Virus record (IMG/VR): IMGVR_UViG_3300010885_029022
Location: 1 to 45,733 of that record
Reading direction: 5' to 3' (one strand)
Length of the DNA stretch: 45,733 bases
DNA from: a virus
Below are positions 30,196 to 45,433 of the stretch, one piece after another. The position numbers and the translations under genes are program-made. Within the stretch, counting starts at the first letter, position 1, and each line of letters begins with the position of its first letter. Below the pieces are notes generated by a model, which had not been told where the DNA came from, searched no databases, and was given only the letters and a program-made list of their open reading frames with translations.

Positions 30196-30570
30196 ATGAG
30201 CAATACAGACTCAACCACACCAATTTTTAAATTTAATGATAAAACCTACAACTTTCTAAAGTTTCTAGCTTTAGTTGGGCTACCAACCGTTGCATCCGCA
30301 TATTTTACTCTTGCTGGTCAGCTTAATTTAGCTAATCCAGAAAAGGTTGTTGGTATTCTTACTGTAATTACAACTCTTCTTGGCGTAATGCTTGGTGTGT
30401 CTACAAAGCAGTTCCATAAGTCTGGAGCTGCGTTTGATGGCGCAATTAGCATCACAGAAGGCGCTGATGGGTCTAAGTTATATTCGTTGGATCTTTACGG
30501 AGACCCAAGTACGCTTGATAGTAAGCAGATTGTAAGCTTTAAAGTAGGCAATTCAAATACGCAAGTATAA
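30196..30570 (+). CDS. Putative holin / membrane protein
   Basis: A 124-residue protein with two hydrophobic segments (FLALVGLPTVASAYFTLAG at about 24-42, VVGILTVITTLLGVMLGVS at about 50-68) and a soluble C-terminal half with DGAISITEGADGSKLYSLDLYGDP. I know this arrangement from actinobacteriophage proteins annotated as holins. It lies after the tail genes, next to other membrane genes, which fits. The endolysin that would use it is far upstream at 6283. AGGAG precedes the ATG. Holin call is by family recall and topology. Confidence 0.78.
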   Translation: MSNTDSTTPIFKFNDKTYNFLKFLALVGLPTVASAYFTLAGQLNLANPEKVVGILTVITTLLGVMLGVSTKQFHKSGAAFDGAISITEGADGSKLYSLDLYGDPSTLDSKQIVSFKVGNSNTQV

Positions 30571-30583
30571 CAACTGCTATAAT
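30560..30583 (+). promoter_or_regulatory. Repeated phage promoter, copy 1
   Basis: A 24-base block: CGCA, then AT-A-ACAA in the spacer, then CTATAAT with TATAAT at 30578-30583 and an upstream TG (TGCTATAAT). The block overlaps the end of the holin-like gene. The expected start site is near 30590, giving a leader of about 18 bases before the ATG at 30608. No TTGACA-like -35 is visible; the conserved part is the spacer itself. Confidence 0.75.
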
Positions 30584-30607
30584 GAACACCTACTGAGAGG
30601 ACTTATA

Positions 30608-30895
30608 ATGAGACTACCAAACAAGAAGGATAAAAACCCAAAGCTAACACTAGCCAAGGACAAGCTCATGGACGAACTGTCCAATTACGACCCACAAGAT
30701 AAGGAATATCAAGCAATTCTCGTAAGCCTGAAAGCCCTCACTGAACTCGAATCGCAACCGCGACGAGGTAAAGTTGATGCTAACACGCTTGCGCTAGTTA
30801 TCGGTAACCTTCTCGGAATCATTGTAATTGTCGCATACGAACAAAAGCACGTCTTTGCCAGTAAAGCTTCAGGTTTCCTCCTAAAAGCCAAGTAA
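30608..30895 (+). CDS. Small membrane protein, first promoter cassette
   Basis: A 95-residue protein: a Lys-rich, soluble N terminus (to about 57) and a C-terminal hydrophobic span (TLALVIGNLLGIIVIVAYEQ at about 59-78) ended by basic residues (KHVFASKASGFLLKAK). I know this type from actinobacteriophages, without a known function. It has its own promoter 25 bases upstream (copy 1) and a very strong terminator 29 bases after the stop, so it is expressed as a single-gene unit. Many codons end in C or G, suggesting high expression. Confidence 0.82.
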   Translation: MRLPNKKDKNPKLTLAKDKLMDELSNYDPQDKEYQAILVSLKALTELESQPRRGKVDANTLALVIGNLLGIIVIVAYEQKHVFASKASGFLLKAK

Positions 30896-30923
30896 CTCAA
30901 CACAGCACTAAAGTAGCATTAGC

Positions 30924-30971
30924 ATATAACCCCTAGATATCACAACGATATTTAGGGGTTATATGTTTTTT
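30924..30971 (+). terminator. Strong intrinsic terminator ending the late operon
   Basis: An 18-bp stem with one G-T pair: the arm ATATAACCCCTA-G-ATATC, loop ACAAC, and the returning arm GATAT-T-TAGGGGTTATAT (30924-30964), then G and six T (30966-30971). The stem is the longest inverted repeat noticed in the window. It separates the structural/lysis genes and the first cassette from the region to the right. The other strand has no T-tract, so it acts rightward. Confidence 0.93.
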
Positions 30972-31028: not shown

Positions 31029-31052
31029 CGCAGGAATTACAACTCCTATAAT
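31029..31052 (+). promoter_or_regulatory. Repeated phage promoter, copy 2
   Basis: Same 24-base block as copy 1: CGCA, AATT-ACAA spacer, CTATAAT with TATAAT at 31047-31052, followed by GAGAAG. Upstream DNA is AT-rich. No coding region begins nearby; the next 70 bases form hairpins ending in a T-tract, so it seems to drive a short RNA. A weaker look-alike (ACAAGTG-C-TATAAA at 30974-30986) lies just upstream. Confidence 0.75.
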
Positions 31053-31122
31053 GAGAAGCAGACATCCTCACTGTCTGGCAACCCTTGCAAAAGAAAAAGC
31101 CAAACTTCTCCTATTTTTTTTT
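31053..31122 (+). ncRNA. Candidate small structured RNA 1
   Basis: Between promoter copy 2 and a T-tract (31114-31122) lies a compact fold with no open reading frame of note. Hairpin CAGACA (31059-31064) with TGTCTG (31072-31077) abuts hairpin GCAA (31078-31081) with TTGC (31085-31088); an A-rich strand follows (31089-31104), then CTTCTC (31105-31110), which is complementary to GAGAAG at 31053-31058. The expected start is about 31058-31060, so that closing stem may not be transcribed. The T-tract directly abuts promoter copy 3. Function unknown: an sRNA, or an attenuated leader. Confidence 0.45.
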
Positions 31123-31146
31123 CGCAGGAATTACAAGGCCTATAAT
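31123..31146 (+). promoter_or_regulatory. Repeated phage promoter, copy 3
   Basis: The 24-base block again: CGCA, AATT-ACAA, GGCC, TATAAT at 31141-31146, followed by GAGAAG as in copy 2. It begins at the first base after the T-tract of the upstream RNA unit, so the two units are directly joined. It drives the second structured RNA, and perhaps by read-through the protein genes from 31291. Confidence 0.75.
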
Positions 31147-31152
31147 GAGAAG

Positions 31153-31265
31153 TAAGATAAGACACGAACGTGTAGGTGAAAGACCTACCTATCTGGTGCA
31201 GAAGCTAAGCTGCTAAATTACAATTTTCGTTGGATTGTAAACCCTAGACATCTCATATTTTTTTT
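31153..31265 (+). ncRNA. Candidate small structured RNA 2
   Basis: About 113 bases from the expected start to a T-tract (31258-31265). AGATA (31155-31159) pairs with TATCT (31190-31194) and closes two hairpins: ACAC/GTGT (31162-31173) and AGGT-GAAAG-ACCT (31074 offset: 31174-31186, extendable to GTAGGT/ACCTAC). Then GCAG/CTGC (31198-31213) and a 7-bp hairpin TTACAAT/ATTGTAA (31218-31240). TCTCAT just before the T-tract can pair with ATGAGA at 31145-31150, but that lies at the promoter. It is not a tRNA. It could be an sRNA or a regulatory leader for the gene at 31291. Confidence 0.45.
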
Positions 31266-31290: not shown

Positions 31291-31410
31291 ATGACACGAT
31301 CAAGGCGTTACGGACTTATACACTTTATATTTGATGTTGTGCTCACCGGTCTTACTGGTGGAATCTGGCTTATTTGGGTTCTTATTCGTGAGTTTCAAAT
31401 GAGGCGGTAA
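31291..31410 (+). CDS. Small membrane protein (39 residues)
   Basis: A 39-residue protein: a short basic N terminus (TRSRRYG), one hydrophobic span with FDVVLTGLTGGIWLIWVLIRE, and a basic end (QMRR). I recall this FD-x(4)-T-GG-WL-IW-x-RE pattern from small membrane proteins of actinobacteriophages; no function is known to me. A strong AAGGAG (31276-31281) precedes the ATG. It is the first protein gene after the two RNA units and its stop overlaps the next start by one base. Confidence 0.8.
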   Translation: MTRSRRYGLIHFIFDVVLTGLTGGIWLIWVLIREFQMRR

Positions 31411-31566: not shown

Positions 31567-32307
31567 ATGAACGCTATTGTCGATATTTTTAACAAAGCAG
31601 AACGACTAGTTCAACATAACTCGTCATCAATTTTAACGGCGTTTGGTATCTCTGGTACAATAGGTACTGCATATTTAACAGGTAAAGCTTCGTTTAAAGC
31701 CGCTCATATTATTCAAGAAGAAGAGCGGTTAACAACAAAAAAAGTAGATCCTAAAGATGCAGTAAAGAAAGTGTGGAAACTTTATATTCCAGCTGGGGTA
31801 TCCGGCGTTGCCACAATTGCTTGTATTGTTGGAGTGTCTAAAATCGGTTCGCGACGGACAGCAGCTATCACAGCTGCATATTCTTTAAGCGAAAAGGCAT
31901 TTACCGAATACAAATCCAAAGTTGTAGAAACTCTCGGAGAAAAGAAAGAGAAGAAAATTCGAGATGAAGTATATGAAACTAAAATGTCAAATAATCCTCC
32001 TTCAAGCTCAGGTATTGTATTGGCGGGTACGGGCGACGTACTCTGCTGCGAGACTTGGACAGGACGATATTTTAACAGCGATATGGAAACCATCCGAAAA
32101 GCTGTAAATGTTATTAACGCCAAACTTAATAGAGAAATGGAAGCAACACTAAGCGACTTCTACTATCTAATTGGCATACCAACAACATCGTCGTCATCAT
32201 ATTCTGGGTGGAACTCAGATAAACTTATGGACTTAGATTTTTCCACCCTACTTCATGACGGACGGCCTTGTTTAGCATTCGAATACAATTACGTTAAGAT
32301 TTTGTGA
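31567..32307 (+). CDS. Two-span membrane protein (DUF6353-like)
   Basis: A 246-residue protein with two hydrophobic spans (about 22-40, ILTAFGISGTIGTAYLTG; about 72-90, LYIPAGVSGVATIACIVGV) separated by a charged helix, then GSRRTAAITAAYSLSEKAF and a cytoplasmic-looking domain. I believe this is the DUF6353 family of phage membrane proteins. A paralogue lies at 34449 (LYTPAVVLGTLSIAALTG, RRNTALTAAYATLSAAY). The C terminus has DFYYLIGIP...GW, a module also found in the proteins at 33644 and 34449. Function unknown; a membrane-anchored assembly is possible. Confidence 0.85.
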   Translation: MNAIVDIFNKAERLVQHNSSSILTAFGISGTIGTAYLTGKASFKAAHIIQEEERLTTKKVDPKDAVKKVWKLYIPAGVSGVATIACIVGVSKIGSRRTAAITAAYSLSEKAFTEYKSKVVETLGEKKEKKIRDEVYETKMSNNPPSSSGIVLAGTGDVLCCETWTGRYFNSDMETIRKAVNVINAKLNREMEATLSDFYYLIGIPTTSSSSYSGWNSDKLMDLDFSTLLHDGRPCLAFEYNYVKIL

Positions 32308-33284: not shown

Positions 33285-33308
33285 CGCAAGTATAACAAGG
33301 CCTATAAT
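33285..33308 (+). promoter_or_regulatory. Repeated phage promoter, copy 4
   Basis: The 24-base block begins two bases after the previous stop codon: CGCA, TATA-ACAA, GGCC, TATAAT at 33303-33308. The next ATG is at 33333, the same 25-base distance from the -10 box as in copy 1. AT-rich DNA precedes it. It drives a single small gene. Confidence 0.75.
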
Positions 33309-33332
33309 GATAACCACTATTGAAAGGCAGAA

Positions 33333-33578
33333 ATGAAACTCGATACTTTTAAACTGGCCAGCGCTTTTGTCGTCGGTTCAGGTGTTGGCAAAATCACATC
33401 CACAATAATTAATAACAATGTTATTCCGCAGACGAACCTCCAAAAGGTTCTAGTCGCTGCGGGAAAATTTGGCATTAGTGTTGCGGCAAGTGCGATTGTT
33501 GTTAAGCACACTGACGCCTATATTGACGAATGCGCTGCCATGTACAAATCGTTCAAGCCAATTCTTACCAAGAAGTAA
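33333..33578 (+). CDS. Small membrane protein, second promoter cassette
   Basis: An 81-residue protein with two short, weak hydrophobic stretches (KLASAFVVGSGVGKI at about 7-21, VLVAAGKFGISVAASAIVV at about 39-57), both Gly/Ala-rich as in helices that pack together, and a basic C terminus (KSFKPILTKK). Flanked by promoter copy 4 upstream and a terminator at 33604-33629 downstream, so it is expressed alone. C/G-ending codons are frequent. AAAGGC precedes the ATG. I do not know the family. Confidence 0.8.
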   Translation: MKLDTFKLASAFVVGSGVGKITSTIINNNVIPQTNLQKVLVAAGKFGISVAASAIVVKHTDAYIDECAAMYKSFKPILTKK

Positions 33579-33603
33579 ATAATCAACAATCAAACAGAGT
33601 TAC

Positions 33604-33629
33604 AGTCCCAACCGGGGCTTTAACTTTTT
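33604..33629 (+). terminator. Intrinsic terminator of second cassette
   Basis: AGTCCC, loop AACC, GGGGCT (33604-33619; six pairs with one T-G), followed by TTAAC and five T (33625-33629). It lies 26 bases after the stop of the 81-residue gene and just ahead of the ribosome binding site of the next gene. The T-tract is interrupted, so termination may be partial. Confidence 0.62.
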
Positions 33630-34448: not shown

Positions 34449-35306
34449 ATGAAATTTATACCAGAATCAATCACGCGAACAATCGGTCGTCAAATGATTA
34501 GCGTACAAAAGAACAGCCCACATATTTTGTTTGCAGCTGGCATTGTTGGTATCGTTGGCAGCACGGTGCTTGCTTCTCGAGCAACTCTTAAATTGAGCGC
34601 AGTTCTTGACGAAGCCGAGCACGAAATCACCGGCGTTAAGACCGAACTGAAGCACCGTAAGGGTCAATACCAAAAAGACTTAGCGTACGTCTACACAAAG
34701 AATACAATGGAAATTGTTAAATTGTATACGCCTGCTGTGGTCCTTGGTACGCTCTCAATCGCCGCTCTTACCGGATCGCATATTCAGTTGACGCGACGTA
34801 ATACGGCTCTTACAGCGGCTTACGCGACCCTCTCAGCGGCTTATGACAACTACCGTGATCGAGTTCGTAAAGAAGTTGGCGAAGAACGAGAGATGCATTT
34901 GTACCACAGCGCCACATTGGAAAAGATGATGGTTGCTGGTAAAAACGAAGAGGTTATGGTTGTAGACCCAAATACTTGGTCTCCTTACGCCCGACTCTTC
35001 GACGAGACATCAATTCAATACCACAAGAACGCGGAGTTAAACAAGCTGTTTATATTGGCTCAGCAAAACTACCTAAACGATTTGCTGCGTGCTCGTGGGC
35101 ATGTGTTTCTCAACGAGGCGTATGACGCACTTGGTTTAGAGCGTTCTACTGCCGGTGCAGTTGTCGGTTGGGTAATTGATGTGACCGGTGACAACTATAT
35201 TGACTTTGGTCTTTACAACAAGCAAAGTGCGCGGTTTACAAATGGTATTGAACGATGCGTTGTTCTTGACTTTAATGTTGACGGCGTTATATTTGATAAA
35301 CTTTAA
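34449..35306 (+). CDS. Two-span membrane protein (DUF6353-like), paralogue
   Basis: A 285-residue protein related to the one at 31567: hydrophobic spans at about 27-43 (LFAAGIVGIVGSTVLAS) and 92-110 (YTPAVVLGTLSIAALTG), a charged helix between, RRNTALTAAYATLSAAYDNYRDRV, then a soluble domain. The soluble end has VFLNEAYDALGLERSTAGAVVGW (219-241, shown here in parts) and IDFGLYNK, a module shared with the proteins at 31567 and 33644. It has an AGGAG site. Many C/G-ending codons suggest strong expression. Function unknown. Confidence 0.87.
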   Translation: MKFIPESITRTIGRQMISVQKNSPHILFAAGIVGIVGSTVLASRATLKLSAVLDEAEHEITGVKTELKHRKGQYQKDLAYVYTKNTMEIVKLYTPAVVLGTLSIAALTGSHIQLTRRNTALTAAYATLSAAYDNYRDRVRKEVGEEREMHLYHSATLEKMMVAGKNEEVMVVDPNTWSPYARLFDETSIQYHKNAELNKLFILAQQNYLNDLLRARGHVFLNEAYDALGLERSTAGAVVGWVIDVTGDNYIDFGLYNKQSARFTNGIERCVVLDFNVDGVIFDKL

Positions 35307-36509: not shown

Positions 36510-39500
36510 TTGGACTTTTATCAGATTAGCCAAACAGAACCAAAGCAAGGTACGCCAAAGTGGTTCCCCGATTGGACTGTCGGGAGATCAAAAGATCTTA
36601 TGGTGCGTGGGCGATCGTTCTACGCAGTATGGGATGAACACAATGGTCTTTGGTCTACAGACGAGTATGATATTCAACGATTAGTTGATGAAGACTTGCA
36701 TCGGTATGCCAAAGAACAAGCGTCTAAGCAAAATGGCGTAAATTTCCCAGTAATGAATCTTAAATCATTTAATACTAGAATCTGGAGCACATTCCGTGCG
36801 TTTATGCTTAACATCAGTGACAATAGTCACCCTCTAGATGAAAAGCTTATATTTGCTAATACTGAAGTTAAGAAGACTGACTACGCAAGTCGTCGGCTGC
36901 CTTACGCATTAGAATCTGGGACGACCAACGCATGGGACGAACTCATGAATGTTCTATATTCTGATGATGAGTTAGCAAAAATTGAATGGGCAATAGGCGC
37001 GGTTGTTTCTGGAGACTCTAAAAAGATTCAGAAATTCCTTGTCTTTTATGGACCAGCTGGAAGTGGTAAGTCAACAGTACTAAACATTATTCAAGACATG
37101 TTTACGGGCTATGTTGCCACGTTTGATGCTAAAGCTCTTGGTAGCAGCAATAACGCATTTGCCACTGAGGTATTTAGGCATAACCCACTTGTTGCAATTC
37201 AACATGACGGTGACTTGTCTAAGATTGACGATAATACAAAACTAAACTCAATCATATCTCACGAAGAAATGACCATGAACGAAAAGTACAAACCGAGTTA
37301 CACTTCTCGAGTTAACGCTTTCTTATTTATGGGCACAAACCAACCAGTAAAAATCTCTGATGCCAAAAGCGGTATTATTCGACGCCTGATTGACGTGCAT
37401 CCAAGCGGTGCTAAAGTCGAGCCAGAACGATACAACGCTTTAATGCAGCAGATTGACTTTGAGCTAGGCGCAATTGCCTACAAGTGTCTAAAGCGTTATC
37501 AGGCAATGGGTAAAAACCACTACAACTCATATCGGCCGCTTGAGATGATGCTACAGACGGACGTGTTTTATAACTTCATTGAAGCATATTTTGACATGTT
37601 TAAAAAGCAGGATGGCGCATCACTCAAACAAGCTTATGAGTTGTATAAAGAGTATTGCTTAGATACTGGCATTGATAGGCTATTACCTCAATACAAGTTT
37701 CGTGAGGAACTACGTAATTACTTTGAATATTTTCACGACAAGATTGAGTTGGAGGGAATTATGGTTAGAAGCTACTACCAAGGCTTTAAAGATCTTACAC
37801 CACCGACGCCATTTAAGCCTCATGAATCATATTTGATTGAGTTTGGCGAACACACGTCAGTGTTTGATACTTTATGTGCTAACCAACCAGCACAGTATGG
37901 TAAAGAAAGTGGCTACCCTGGCAGGAAATGGGAGAGTGTTACCACAACTCTCTCAGATCTCGATACGGCAAAGCTTCATTTTGTAAAGGTACCAGAGAAT
38001 CATATTATCATTGACTTTGATTTAGTTGATGAGAATGGCGATAAAGACTTACTTCAAAATGTACGGGCTGCTTCATTGTGGCCACCAACATATTCTGAAT
38101 TGAGTAAAAGCGGTTCGGGCGTGCATTTACATTATTTCTTTACGGGCAATGTGCATGAGCTAGCAAATGTCTATGATGTCGGCATTGAGGTTAAAACACT
38201 TCTTGGCGACAGCTCATTACGTCGAAAGCTAACGCAGTGTAACACACTTGATATTTCTACAATAAGTAGCGGACTACCTAAGAAGGACAAACCTGTGCTT
38301 GATAATAGAACAATACAAAGCGAAAAGGGTTTACGCGATCTAATCGAACGGAACCTTAAAAAAGATATTCATCCAGGCACTAAGCCGTCAATTGACTTCA
38401 TTCACAAGATTTTAGAAGATGCGTATGCTGAGGACTTGCGTTATGACGTTCGAGATTTGCGACCTCGTATTTTAGCATTTGCTCTTGGAAGCAACAACCA
38501 ATCTACGGCATGTCTTAAGATCGTTCAAAAGATGCGGTTTGTGAGCGAGTCAGCGTTAGAGTTTCTCTACACAAATCTTTTAGTAGAGCAAGGCAACGAT
38601 AAAGAAGAACTACCTCTTGTTTTCTATGACGTAGAGGTATATCCTAACTTGTTTATTGTGTGCTGGAAATACGAAGACAAGCCAGAAGTTGTTCGGATGA
38701 TCAACCCAACCTCTCAAGAAATTGAGAAGTTATTTGCTTTGAAGCTTGTGGGCTTTAACAATCGAAGGTACGACAATCATATTCTCTACGCTCGCTTTCT
38801 TGGCGAGTCGTTAGAGGACCTGTACAACCGGTCACAAAAGATAATTAGCACAAACGAAGGTGGCTTGTTTGGTGAAGCGTACAACCTTTCTTACGCGGAT
38901 ATTTACGACTTTAGCTCAAAGAAGCAAGGTCTTAAAAAGTTTGAGATTGAGTTGGGTATTCATCACATGGAAATGGACTTGCCTTGGGATGAGCCAGTTG
39001 CCGAAGAGCTTTGGCCTTTGGTTGTTGACTATTGTGTTAACGACGTAGTTGCAACAGAGGCCGTGTTCAAAGACAGGAAGCAAGACTTCGTTGCTAGGTC
39101 TATCTTGGCTGAATTGTCTGGCTTGTCGGTTAACCACACAACACAGCAGCATACCGCTAAAATTATATTTGGCGCTGAAAAGTACCCTCAAAAGAGTTTC
39201 GTATACACCGATCTTAGTGCCATATTTAAGGGCTACAAGTTTGATGGACGCGAATCAACTTACCGAGGAGAAGTTGTTGGCGAAGGTGGGTATGTATATT
39301 CTGAGCCAGGTATCTATGAGAATGTAGCTCTACTTGACGTAGCAAGTATGCATCCAACATCAATTGAGGAACTTAACCTCTTTGGGCCATATACCAAAAA
39401 CTTTTCGGAACTTAAAGAAGCGCGTTTGGCAATTAAGCATAAGCAATACGAAAAGGCAGCCGGTTTGCTTGGCGGTAAACTTGCTAAGTTTCTTGATGGC

Positions 39501-40262
39501 GACAACAAGAATGCCGAAGGCCTTTCGTATGCTCTTAAGATTGTTATTAACATTGTCTATGGCCTTACCAGTGCCAAATTCAGTAACGCCTTCCGAGATA
39601 ACCGAAACGTAGATAACATCGTTGCAAAACGAGGTGCCTTATTCATGATAGACCTTAAGGACGAAGTCCAGAAACTAGGTTTTACAGTTGCGCACATTAA
39701 GACTGACTCAATCAAAATCCCAGATGCAACGCCAGAGATCATTGCGTTTGTCACAGAATTTGGCAAACGTTACGGTTATGACTTTGAGCATGAGGGAACG
39801 TATGATAAATTTTGTCTGGTTAACGATGCGGTATATATTGCAAGGGAAAAAGGTTCCTGGAACGCTGTCGGGGCACAATTTCAACACCCATATGTATTTA
39901 AGAAGTTGTTCACAGGTGAACCGGTTACATTCGACGACTTGTGCGAGACCAAAAGCGTCACACAAGGCGCTATGTACCTCGATTTCTCAAACCAACAAGT
40001 GGATATTGACCTTAAGGAGCTAGTGCATGTTGGCAGGACTGGAAGCTTTATTCCGGTTATATCTGCTGGAGCTACACTTTGGCGTATCAAAGACGGTAAG
40101 AAATATGCTGTCACGGGCACAAAGGGTTACCAGTGGGTTGAGCGAGAGATGGCGTTTGCACGTGAAGACTTGGATGTGGATTATTCGTACTTTGAAAATC
40201 TTAAAACGGCAGCGTTTGAAGCAGTAGATTTTTACGGAGTATTTGAGAAATTTGTCGAGTAG
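36510..40262 (+). CDS. Helicase-primase-polymerase fusion (SF3 + AEP + family B DNA polymerase)
   Basis: A 1250-residue replication protein with three parts. SF3/D5-type helicase (about 150-300): Walker A GPAGSGKST at 181-189, Walker B-like AIQHDGD (229-235), motif C FMGTNQP (273-279), and the Arg pair IIRRL (289-293). Primase-like AEP domain (about 470-600): IIIDFDL with Asp502 and Asp504, SGSGVHLH with His539, and Glu560. Family B polymerase: exonuclease YDVEV (Asp707, Glu709), GFNNRRYDN (748-756), YCVND (Asp845); polymerase motif A LLDVASMHP (941-949), motif B LKIVINIVYG (1009-1018), motif C IKTDS (Asp1066, with Lys in place of the first Asp). TTG start after AGGGGG. I know the parts from separate genes; this three-way joining is unusual. 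Confidence 0.92.
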   Translation: MDFYQISQTEPKQGTPKWFPDWTVGRSKDLMVRGRSFYAVWDEHNGLWSTDEYDIQRLVDEDLHRYAKEQASKQNGVNFPVMNLKSFNTRIWSTFRAFMLNISDNSHPLDEKLIFANTEVKKTDYASRRLPYALESGTTNAWDELMNVLYSDDELAKIEWAIGAVVSGDSKKIQKFLVFYGPAGSGKSTVLNIIQDMFTGYVATFDAKALGSSNNAFATEVFRHNPLVAIQHDGDLSKIDDNTKLNSIISHEEMTMNEKYKPSYTSRVNAFLFMGTNQPVKISDAKSGIIRRLIDVHPSGAKVEPERYNALMQQIDFELGAIAYKCLKRYQAMGKNHYNSYRPLEMMLQTDVFYNFIEAYFDMFKKQDGASLKQAYELYKEYCLDTGIDRLLPQYKFREELRNYFEYFHDKIELEGIMVRSYYQGFKDLTPPTPFKPHESYLIEFGEHTSVFDTLCANQPAQYGKESGYPGRKWESVTTTLSDLDTAKLHFVKVPENHIIIDFDLVDENGDKDLLQNVRAASLWPPTYSELSKSGSGVHLHYFFTGNVHELANVYDVGIEVKTLLGDSSLRRKLTQCNTLDISTISSGLPKKDKPVLDNRTIQSEKGLRDLIERNLKKDIHPGTKPSIDFIHKILEDAYAEDLRYDVRDLRPRILAFALGSNNQSTACLKIVQKMRFVSESALEFLYTNLLVEQGNDKEELPLVFYDVEVYPNLFIVCWKYEDKPEVVRMINPTSQEIEKLFALKLVGFNNRRYDNHILYARFLGESLEDLYNRSQKIISTNEGGLFGEAYNLSYADIYDFSSKKQGLKKFEIELGIHHMEMDLPWDEPVAEELWPLVVDYCVNDVVATEAVFKDRKQDFVARSILAELSGLSVNHTTQQHTAKIIFGAEKYPQKSFVYTDLSAIFKGYKFDGRESTYRGEVVGEGGYVYSEPGIYENVALLDVASMHPTSIEELNLFGPYTKNFSELKEARLAIKHKQYEKAAGLLGGKLAKFLDGDNKNAEGLSYALKIVINIVYGLTSAKFSNAFRDNRNVDNIVAKRGALFMIDLKDEVQKLGFTVAHIKTDSIKIPDATPEIIAFVTEFGKRYGYDFEHEGTYDKFCLVNDAVYIAREKGSWNAVGAQFQHPYVFKKLFTGEPVTFDDLCETKSVTQGAMYLDFSNQQVDIDLKELVHVGRTGSFIPVISAGATLWRIKDGKKYAVTGTKGYQWVEREMAFAREDLDVDYSYFENLKTAAFEAVDFYGVFEKFVE

Positions 40263-44059: not shown

Positions 44060-44132
44060 TCCTCTATAGCTCAGTTGGTAGAGCATCGGACTTTTAATCC
44101 GTGGGTCGCAGGTTCGAAACCTGCTGGAGGAA
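44060..44132 (+). tRNA. tRNA-Lys (anticodon UUU)
   Basis: A 73-base cloverleaf. Acceptor TCCTCTA (44060-44066) pairs with TGGAGGA (44125-44131) with one G-T pair; D arm GCTCAGTTGGTAGAGC; anticodon loop CTTTTAA with TTT; T arm GCAGGTTCGAAACCTGC. CCA is not encoded. It reads AAA/AAG. Confidence 0.96.
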
Positions 44133-44143
44133 CGCAATACTTA

Positions 44144-44227
44144 GCCCAGGTGGCGGAATGGCAGACGCAGAGGACTTAAACTCCTCCGTTCGTAATGGAC
44201 GTACGGGTTCGAATCCCGTCCCGGGCA
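44144..44227 (+). tRNA. tRNA-Leu (anticodon UAA)
   Basis: An 84-base tRNA with a long variable arm, as expected for leucine. Acceptor GCCCAGG (44144-44150) pairs with CCCGGGC (44220-44226) with one A-C mismatch; anticodon loop CTTAAAC with TAA; T arm ACGGGTTCGAATCCCGT. CCA is not encoded. It reads UUA, a codon common in the window's genes. Confidence 0.95.
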
Positions 44228-44254
44228 CTCACCAACAATAAAGGAGATATTCAA

Positions 44255-45135: not shown

Positions 45136-45159
45136 CGCAAAAATTACAAGGCCTATAAT
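45136..45159 (+). promoter_or_regulatory. Repeated phage promoter, copy 5
   Basis: The fifth 24-base block: CGCA, AATT-ACAA, GGCC, TATAAT at 45154-45159. Two bases after the previous stop, as in copy 4. The ATG of the next gene is at 45187, 28 bases from the -10 box. It drives a single small membrane gene with its own terminator. Confidence 0.75.
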
Positions 45160-45186
45160 AGAACCATCTATTCAAGGAGAACCGTT

Positions 45187-45384
45187 ATGAACCCATCAAC
45201 CAAACTTCTCGATAAGGCTGTCAGTGACCTGACGCTTCGTGATTCACTCAAGATCAACCTCGGTGTTGTGGCAGCATTTGTCGCAATCCCAGTTGCAATC
45301 GGAGTGGGCGCAAGCATCAAGTCAAAGATCAGCACCATCAAGAACAACCGCAAAATGAAGAATACCGAAACAACTGAAAAGTAA
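45187..45384 (+). CDS. Small membrane protein, third promoter cassette
   Basis: A 65-residue protein with a charged N terminus (SDLTLRDSLKIN), one hydrophobic span (LGVVAAFVAIPVAIGVGASI, about 25-44) and a strongly basic, polar end (KSKISTIKNNRKMKN). Flanked by promoter copy 5 and a terminator at 45393-45433, so it forms a single-gene unit. Codons end in C or G far more often than in neighbours (ATC, AAG, AAC), which suggests high expression. AAGGAG precedes the ATG. Family unknown. Confidence 0.8.
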   Translation: MNPSTKLLDKAVSDLTLRDSLKINLGVVAAFVAIPVAIGVGASIKSKISTIKNNRKMKNTETTEK

Positions 45385-45392
45385 TTCAACAA

Positions 45393-45433
45393 AAAGCCAG
45401 AAAGCCCACAAGGCCTATGGTTTTCTTTTTTTT
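45393..45433 (+). terminator. Intrinsic terminator of third cassette
   Basis: AAAGCC (45393-45398) pairs with GGTTTT (45419-45424, one G-T pair), enclosing a GCC-CACAA-GGC inner stem; a T-rich tract follows (45421-45433, eight T in a row at 45426-45433). It lies nine bases after the stop of the 65-residue gene. Confidence 0.72.

Follow-up and report, generated by a model that had tools for sequence, protein, structure and literature searches.

The small membrane-protein cassettes of this virus belong to a far wider pattern, a phage promoter sequence present in hundreds of copies. A contiguous element of about 30 bp, CGCANNNATNACAANNCCTATAAT, occurs five times in the window (the whole stretch of DNA analysed here, a 45,733-bp virus record from IMG/VR with 42% GC), in each case on the + strand. 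In our assessment, it is probably the promoter for an RNA polymerase that the phage itself encodes, a single-chain two-barrel enzyme (YonO/QDE-1-like) represented by phrog_4291. Three of the copies precede single-gene membrane-protein units and two precede non-coding RNAs (Table 1). The first-pass annotation had correctly placed the three units (elements at 30560, 33285 and 45136) and their promoter copies; the total is five, the copies at 31029 and 31123 being those in front of the non-coding RNAs. From shuffled sequence, 0.01 matches to the pattern would be expected in the window. With a weight matrix built from other phages only, the window being left out, the five copies score 23.6–43.1 bits, whereas nothing else on the two strands exceeds 2.3 bits.

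Table 1. Promoter copies, genes, terminators and non-coding RNAs of the cassette region (window coordinates)
Feature	Position	Strand	Basis
Promoter element copy 1 (CGCAAGTATAACAACTGCTATAATGAAC)	30560..30587	+	pattern and weight-matrix search
Cassette 1 gene, 95 aa, phrog_5818 family	30608..30895	+	profile match 2.8e-20
Cassette 1 terminator, strong intrinsic, 21-bp stem, T-run	30921..30967	+	-30 kcal/mol, z -10.3
Promoter element copy 2	31029..31056	+	pattern search, 0 mismatches
Non-coding RNA 1	31053..31120	+	5' GAGAAG pairs with CTTCTC before T-run
Promoter element copy 3	31123..31150	+	pattern search, 0 mismatches
Non-coding RNA 2, conserved structured family, ~108 nt	31147..31254	+	covariance model, 108.4 bits
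Promoter element copy 4	33285..33312	+	pattern search, 0 mismatches
Cassette 2 gene, 81 aa, phrog_7539 family	33333..33578	+	profile search
Cassette 2 terminator, moderate	33598..33629	+	-12.8 kcal/mol, z -4.7
Promoter element copy 5 (TATAATAGAA variant)	45136..45163	+	pattern search, 0 mismatches
Cassette 3 gene, 65 aa, one membrane segment, no family	45187..45384	+	
Cassette 3 terminator-like stem, weak, long T-run	45393..45433	+	-10.1 kcal/mol, z -1.7

The element can be written in short form as T-CGCA-N-RAAWT-ACA-N-G-S-CC-TATAAT-GAGA, and the consensus of 130 sites is T-CGCA-N-R-A-A/T-T-T-ACA-N-G-S-C-C-TATAAT-GAGA-CCCC. The TATAAT is nearly invariant and matches the -10 box of sigma-70/sigmaA promoters. 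Among these 130 sites, there is almost no information 5' of the T that precedes CGCA, whereas 3' of TATAAT clear information continues into GAGACC, i.e., the element runs into the transcript. A -35 box (TTGACA 16–18 bp upstream) is absent in all 130 sites, and a standard sigma-70 scan of the region found promoters no more frequently than in shuffled sequences and missed the element altogether. That TATAAT equals the bacterial -10 consensus speaks against a phage polymerase and for a strong extended -10 promoter of host sigmaA (sigma-70), with flanks conserved incidentally or because they improve its strength; this is the published reading for the Gordonia phages Vardy and Conley (PMC9671010, PMC10868162), and the host polymerase is available in every host. 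We nevertheless consider this explanation rather unlikely, given the conservation of GAGACC beyond TATAAT and the combination of a missing -35 box with a spacer that is fixed and conserved, a mode of recognition not known for sigma. The lack of the -35 box also means that a promoter in the sigma-70 sense is not what is seen in the sequence.

The RNAs encoded behind the element bear on the position of the transcription start. No ORF was called behind 106 of the 633 distinct element sites, and many of the ORF-less RNAs begin with GAGAAG, GAAAGA or GAGAACC right after TATAAT, with the complement preceding the 3' T-run, for example, GAGAACCTAGTATCTG...CAGATACTAGGTTCTC-ATTTT (L239). All offsets from 0 to 4 after TATAAT pair with the terminator arm in 15 of 44 RNAs, compared with a mean of 8.1 and a maximum of 14 when the 3' arms were swapped among sites (500 trials); the test is of modest size, its register was set from the inner bases only, and offsets 0–1, which are nearly invariant and pair without covarying, were not counted as evidence alone. 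Because the pairing reaches the first base after TATAAT, it points to that base as the transcription start, instead of a position 6–8 nt further on as for sigma-70. A sigma-70 start would leave the pairing bases, such as GAGAAG, untranscribed, although they pair with the terminator arm, which is a further argument against the host promoter. A start directly after TATAAT also misfits a host holoenzyme assisted by an activator or sigma-like factor of the phage, with contacts to TCGCA and ACA. Such an arrangement would explain both the long conserved spacer and the -10-like box, and phage-encoded sigma factors have been reported in other actinobacteriophages (PMC7302621); however, phrog_4291 was identified here and a factor of this kind was not, and we regard this possibility as quite improbable.

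Both non-coding RNAs of the window lack an Rfam family; matches to the Rfam family Plastid-ycf2 were antisense to tRNAs and were discarded. In non-coding RNA 2, compensatory changes are found at 16 of the 22 predicted pairs, and the 5' end pairs with its own terminator arm. The covariance model of this RNA yields 17 matches, most of them the sequences used to build it. An ORF for a membrane-like protein of 39 aa (31291–31410, +) lies directly 3' of non-coding RNA 2, and similar short ORFs seem to come after the RNA in two other loci (L083 and L245). Elsewhere, promoter-driven RNAs of ~60 nt resemble truncated tRNAs (L115:2103 and L125:1974), the former with a T-arm-like GGTTCGAATCC.

The element recurs, always on one strand, in phages of Rhodococcus, Gordonia, Streptomyces, Arthrobacter, Microbacterium, Curtobacterium and Lactococcus. 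The relationship of these phages to the window is apparent from the DNA primase/polymerase (36510–40262), which is ~62% identical to those of Gordonia phages and 61.5% identical to that of Rhodococcus phage ReqiPepy6, with Arthrobacter, Streptomyces, Curtobacterium, Microbacterium and Lactococcus phages more distant. ReqiPepy6, which has an ACACAC variant, carries 16 copies of the element and Gordonia phage Conley 11, mostly in the middle of the genome. The generic pattern is present, on the + strand only, in 17 of the 18 named phages that share the DNA polymerase, and the reversed pattern has no match in the same 18; the remaining one, Lactococcus phage P092, has an element with TTTA replacing CGCA. 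With the weight matrix, 176 sites on the + strand and none on the - strand were found in the fetched regions of 20 phages (threshold 13 bits), and 297 and none, respectively, in 80 IMG/VR loci (threshold 20 bits), two sets that partly overlap because IMG/VR includes some of the same isolates. Two observations argue against a host sigma promoter: the phages that share the element infect hosts that range from Lactococcus to Streptomyces, and its strict form is nowhere present as a promoter in 84,980 genomes of bacteria and archaea (257 Gb).

The search of these genomes gave two matches. One is in a 4.1-kb contig of an Acidobacteria bin (L143), where holin-like and cassette-1-like ORFs come before the element, and which is apparently a phage fragment. 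The other (L144, 3424–3451, -) is a CRISPR-array spacer of Streptomyces sp. NRRL F-5122, TCGCAAGAATTACACGGCCTATAATGAGACT, which sits between copies of GTTTCTATGCCCTGCGGGC...GGAAC and matches the promoter consensus, indicating that the host targets the element itself. Several features of individual genomes may be added here. In P092, the TTTA-type element drives tRNA genes (L139:1582–2080), and in the window, the genes for tRNA-Lys(TTT) and tRNA-Leu(TAA) at 44060–44228 have no promoter element just upstream. Arthrobacter phage Paella (L113) has 29 copies of the pattern in its genome, more than 20 of which form tandem single-gene cassettes within ~8 kb. The window further contains two members of phrog_2152, at 31567–32307 (also DUF6353) and 34449–35306, which are probable paralogs.

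The phrog_4291 gene is associated with the element. The family, to which ReqiPepy6 gp106 and Conley gp89 belong (annotated as 'RNA-dependent RNA polymerase'), is present in all 18 named phages that carry the DNA polymerase over most of its length, a set that includes the partial record contig89, whereas Listeria phage P35 and Enterococcus phage phiSHEF4 have neither phrog_4291 nor the element. Of the 68 IMG/VR records retrieved with the pattern alone, 37 encode phrog_4291, compared with none of the 22 retrieved with the reversed pattern, and the fraction is 15 of 17 for pattern records of at least 40 kb in which bases outside the pattern also fit. The window record (45.7 kb) has no phrog_4291 gene; it is probably a fragment, and we infer the presence of the polymerase in this phage from relatives such as the closest long one (L167, 57.9 kb, 75% polymerase identity), which does encode it. 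In 17 of 31 loci, a copy of the element, mostly TATAATAGAA and often with a hairpin and T-run within ~40 nt, lies 894–1019 nt upstream of the polymerase gene (e.g., L191:6392, L194:15725 and L197:15127); it may provide feedback on the polymerase operon or produce a ~40-nt RNA of some other use. Co-inheritance within one clade that shares its replication genes would also explain the association of the element with the polymerase, without recognition of one by the other.

The phrog_4291 family has an invariant SGADFDGD, the metal-binding motif of two-barrel polymerases with its catalytic DFDGD. A search of the PDB with a sequence profile made from the polymerase alignment returned no polymerase, so that a fold search was needed. 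In a fold search with the AlphaFold2 model (mean pLDDT 80.8), QDE-1 structures are the best matches (E 4e-9 to 5e-7), followed by the largest subunits of cellular polymerases; the global TM-scores are low, about 0.3, so that the match is one of the fold core. Judged by this model, phrog_4291 is a single-chain two-barrel RNA polymerase of the QDE-1 fold. The record of ReqiPepy6 notes that the polymerase protein is similar to gp75 of Lactococcus phage 1706, a structural protein; if this likeness holds, the polymerase may be carried in the virion. A search of the literature on phage 1706 proteomics and on the letters of the motif gave nothing useful.

The products of the promoters are typically small. 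The 521 promoter-first ORFs have a median length of 74 aa and start at a median of 26 nt after TATAAT, in agreement with the distances of 25, 25 and 28 nt in cassettes 1, 2 and 3, which are as previously noted. The proteins of these cassettes were said to be small and membrane-spanning, and each indeed has a hydrophobic segment (best 19-residue Kyte-Doolittle means of 2.2, 2.1 and 2.2). The membrane-protein enrichment extends to the whole group: a membrane-like segment, called by a hydropathy threshold and not by a trained predictor, is found in 62% of 502 small promoter-first ORFs and in 31% of 1606 other small ORFs of the same loci (Fisher p 3e-35, a statistic in which related phages are not independent). 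Other proposed traits of the cassettes are retained in part. The terminator of cassette 1 is very strong, as had been claimed, whereas that of cassette 2 is moderate and that of cassette 3 weak, and the preference for C/G-ending codons is seen relative to nine other genes (GC3 0.29–0.43), the absolute values being just 0.45, 0.46 and 0.55 for cassettes 1, 2 and 3.

The units are also kept in relatives. Cassette 1 is the first promoter unit in most phages, and its promoter is found within 150 nt upstream in 66 of 69 distinct relatives, the other three having lower-scoring sequences of the same form; the cassette 1 protein and the promoter are thus conserved as a unit. For cassette 2, which has relatives in the same place in ReqiPepy6 (gp066) and Conley (gp55), both also behind the promoter, the corresponding count is 59 of 69. 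A terminator-like hairpin follows within 160 nt in 31 of 69 relatives of cassette 1 and 37 of 69 of cassette 2, compared with 15 of 400 random windows. Hence the description of closed promoter-gene-terminator units is borne out, and relatives do not lack them. The cassette 1 protein, the promoter of which overlaps the 3' end of the holin gene, matches the phrog_5818 profile over residues 5–95 and has a helical-looking N-terminal part and a single membrane segment followed by a conserved E and SK(A); tblastn against phages found nothing for this protein, although the PHROG profile matched, because it is too divergent for a pairwise search. Given that it adjoins the holin and is conserved across the group, a first guess is that this protein is a predicted membrane-anchored factor in the control of lysis or the envelope. 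The cassette 3 protein has no relatives at the blastp threshold.

Superinfection exclusion or takeover of the cell envelope, as suggested in the first-pass annotation, is a possible, putative role of the cassette proteins. A stronger version of this idea is that the unit is mainly such a system, with the promoter only its switch, a proposal that concerns the function of the products and does not exclude any of the promoter readings. It accords with the conservation of cassette 1 across hosts and with membrane proteins being twice as frequent among promoter-first small ORFs as among other small ORFs. However, the same promoters drive tRNAs, non-coding RNAs and soluble proteins, 223 of the 274 protein clusters are singletons, and a Pfam search with the three cassette proteins found no match, including none to an exclusion family; we therefore deem the proposal unlikely. 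The view that membrane peptides define the system is not supported either, the common factor of the units being, in all likelihood, the phage's own RNA polymerase.

We propose that the phrog_4291 polymerase would read the contiguous ~30-bp block from TCGCA to GAGA and would start at, or at most 1 base from, the G after TATAAT; the TATAAT, by adjoining the start site, would then not be a sigma-70 -10 box. The transcription unit driven by each copy would be short, in many cases with a terminator of its own, and would encode a single small protein, usually a membrane protein, or else a tRNA or a structured non-coding RNA. In this way, the cassettes might provide RNAs and small proteins directed to the envelope without any need for host sigma factors, and, should the virion carry the polymerase, probably at an early stage of infection. 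In its broadest form, to which we give somewhat better than even credence, the hypothesis is that YonO/QDE-1-like single-chain polymerases, in hundreds of phages that infect Actinomycetota and Firmicutes, read a class of promoters in which TATAAT directly adjoins the start, and that these private promoters serve dozens of small membrane proteins, tRNAs and novel structured non-coding RNAs.

The analysis provides a precise ~30-bp candidate promoter and a predicted start site for a YonO-related polymerase, and recognition is testable in vitro, given that candidate promoter-polymerase pairs occur in cultured phages of Gordonia, Streptomyces, Arthrobacter and Lactococcus. If true, the proposal would define an orthogonal promoter-polymerase pair, account for the large number of insulated genes for small membrane proteins in these phages, and correct the published sigma-70 assignment. 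The system is not wholly undescribed, as had been suggested, since the motif, terminators and membrane genes were already noted for Gordonia phage Vardy (PMC9671010). As far as the literature searched is concerned, what is new is the range of hosts whose phages carry the element, its link to phrog_4291, the proposed start site, the non-coding RNAs, the CRISPR spacer and the finding that cassettes 1 and 2 are conserved.

Among the closest known counterparts is the 50-bp intergenic motif of the Gordonia cluster DJ phages Vardy and Conley, reported in five copies per genome and called a sigma-70 promoter (PMC9671010, PMC10868162). Like the element, this motif is intergenic, contains TATAAT, and is located in the middle genome region along with terminators and many genes for membrane or signal-sequence proteins. 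The published motif, however, is confined to five copies and one cluster, whereas 11 copies were recovered here in Conley, and the publications connect it neither with an RNA polymerase gene, non-coding RNAs or tRNAs nor with phages that infect other hosts, and do not place a start immediately behind TATAAT.

Single-chain two-barrel phage polymerases with their own promoter motifs are also found in Thermus phage P23-45, which has a virion and a non-virion two-barrel RNA polymerase, each with a specific promoter motif; relatives that lack the virion polymerase also lack its motif (PMC10770324). The P23-45 motifs differ in sequence from the element and are supported by ChIP-seq and TSS mapping, whereas the pairing proposed here is inferred. 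YonO of Bacillus phage SPbeta is a single-chain DNA-dependent RNA polymerase of ~100 kDa with a two-barrel core, which transcribes the late genes as one operon from a mapped start upstream of a non-coding RNA and yonK, the promoter sequence being stated as undetermined (PMC5467207). Transcription of late genes as one operon differs from the short units described here, and the SPbeta stretch that holds yonO, including the region upstream of yonK, gave no good full match to the matrix. The best core match upstream of yonK, AGAAGGCTTATAATGGG, scored 14.5 bits; no connection with the start site mapped for YonO could be established, and it was not retained.

In general form, the element is reminiscent of T7-type promoters, which are likewise contiguous, abut the start site and extend a few bases into the transcript. 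The polymerases themselves, however, differ: the T7 enzyme has an unrelated fold, whereas the phrog_4291 polymerase is predicted to be QDE-1-like.
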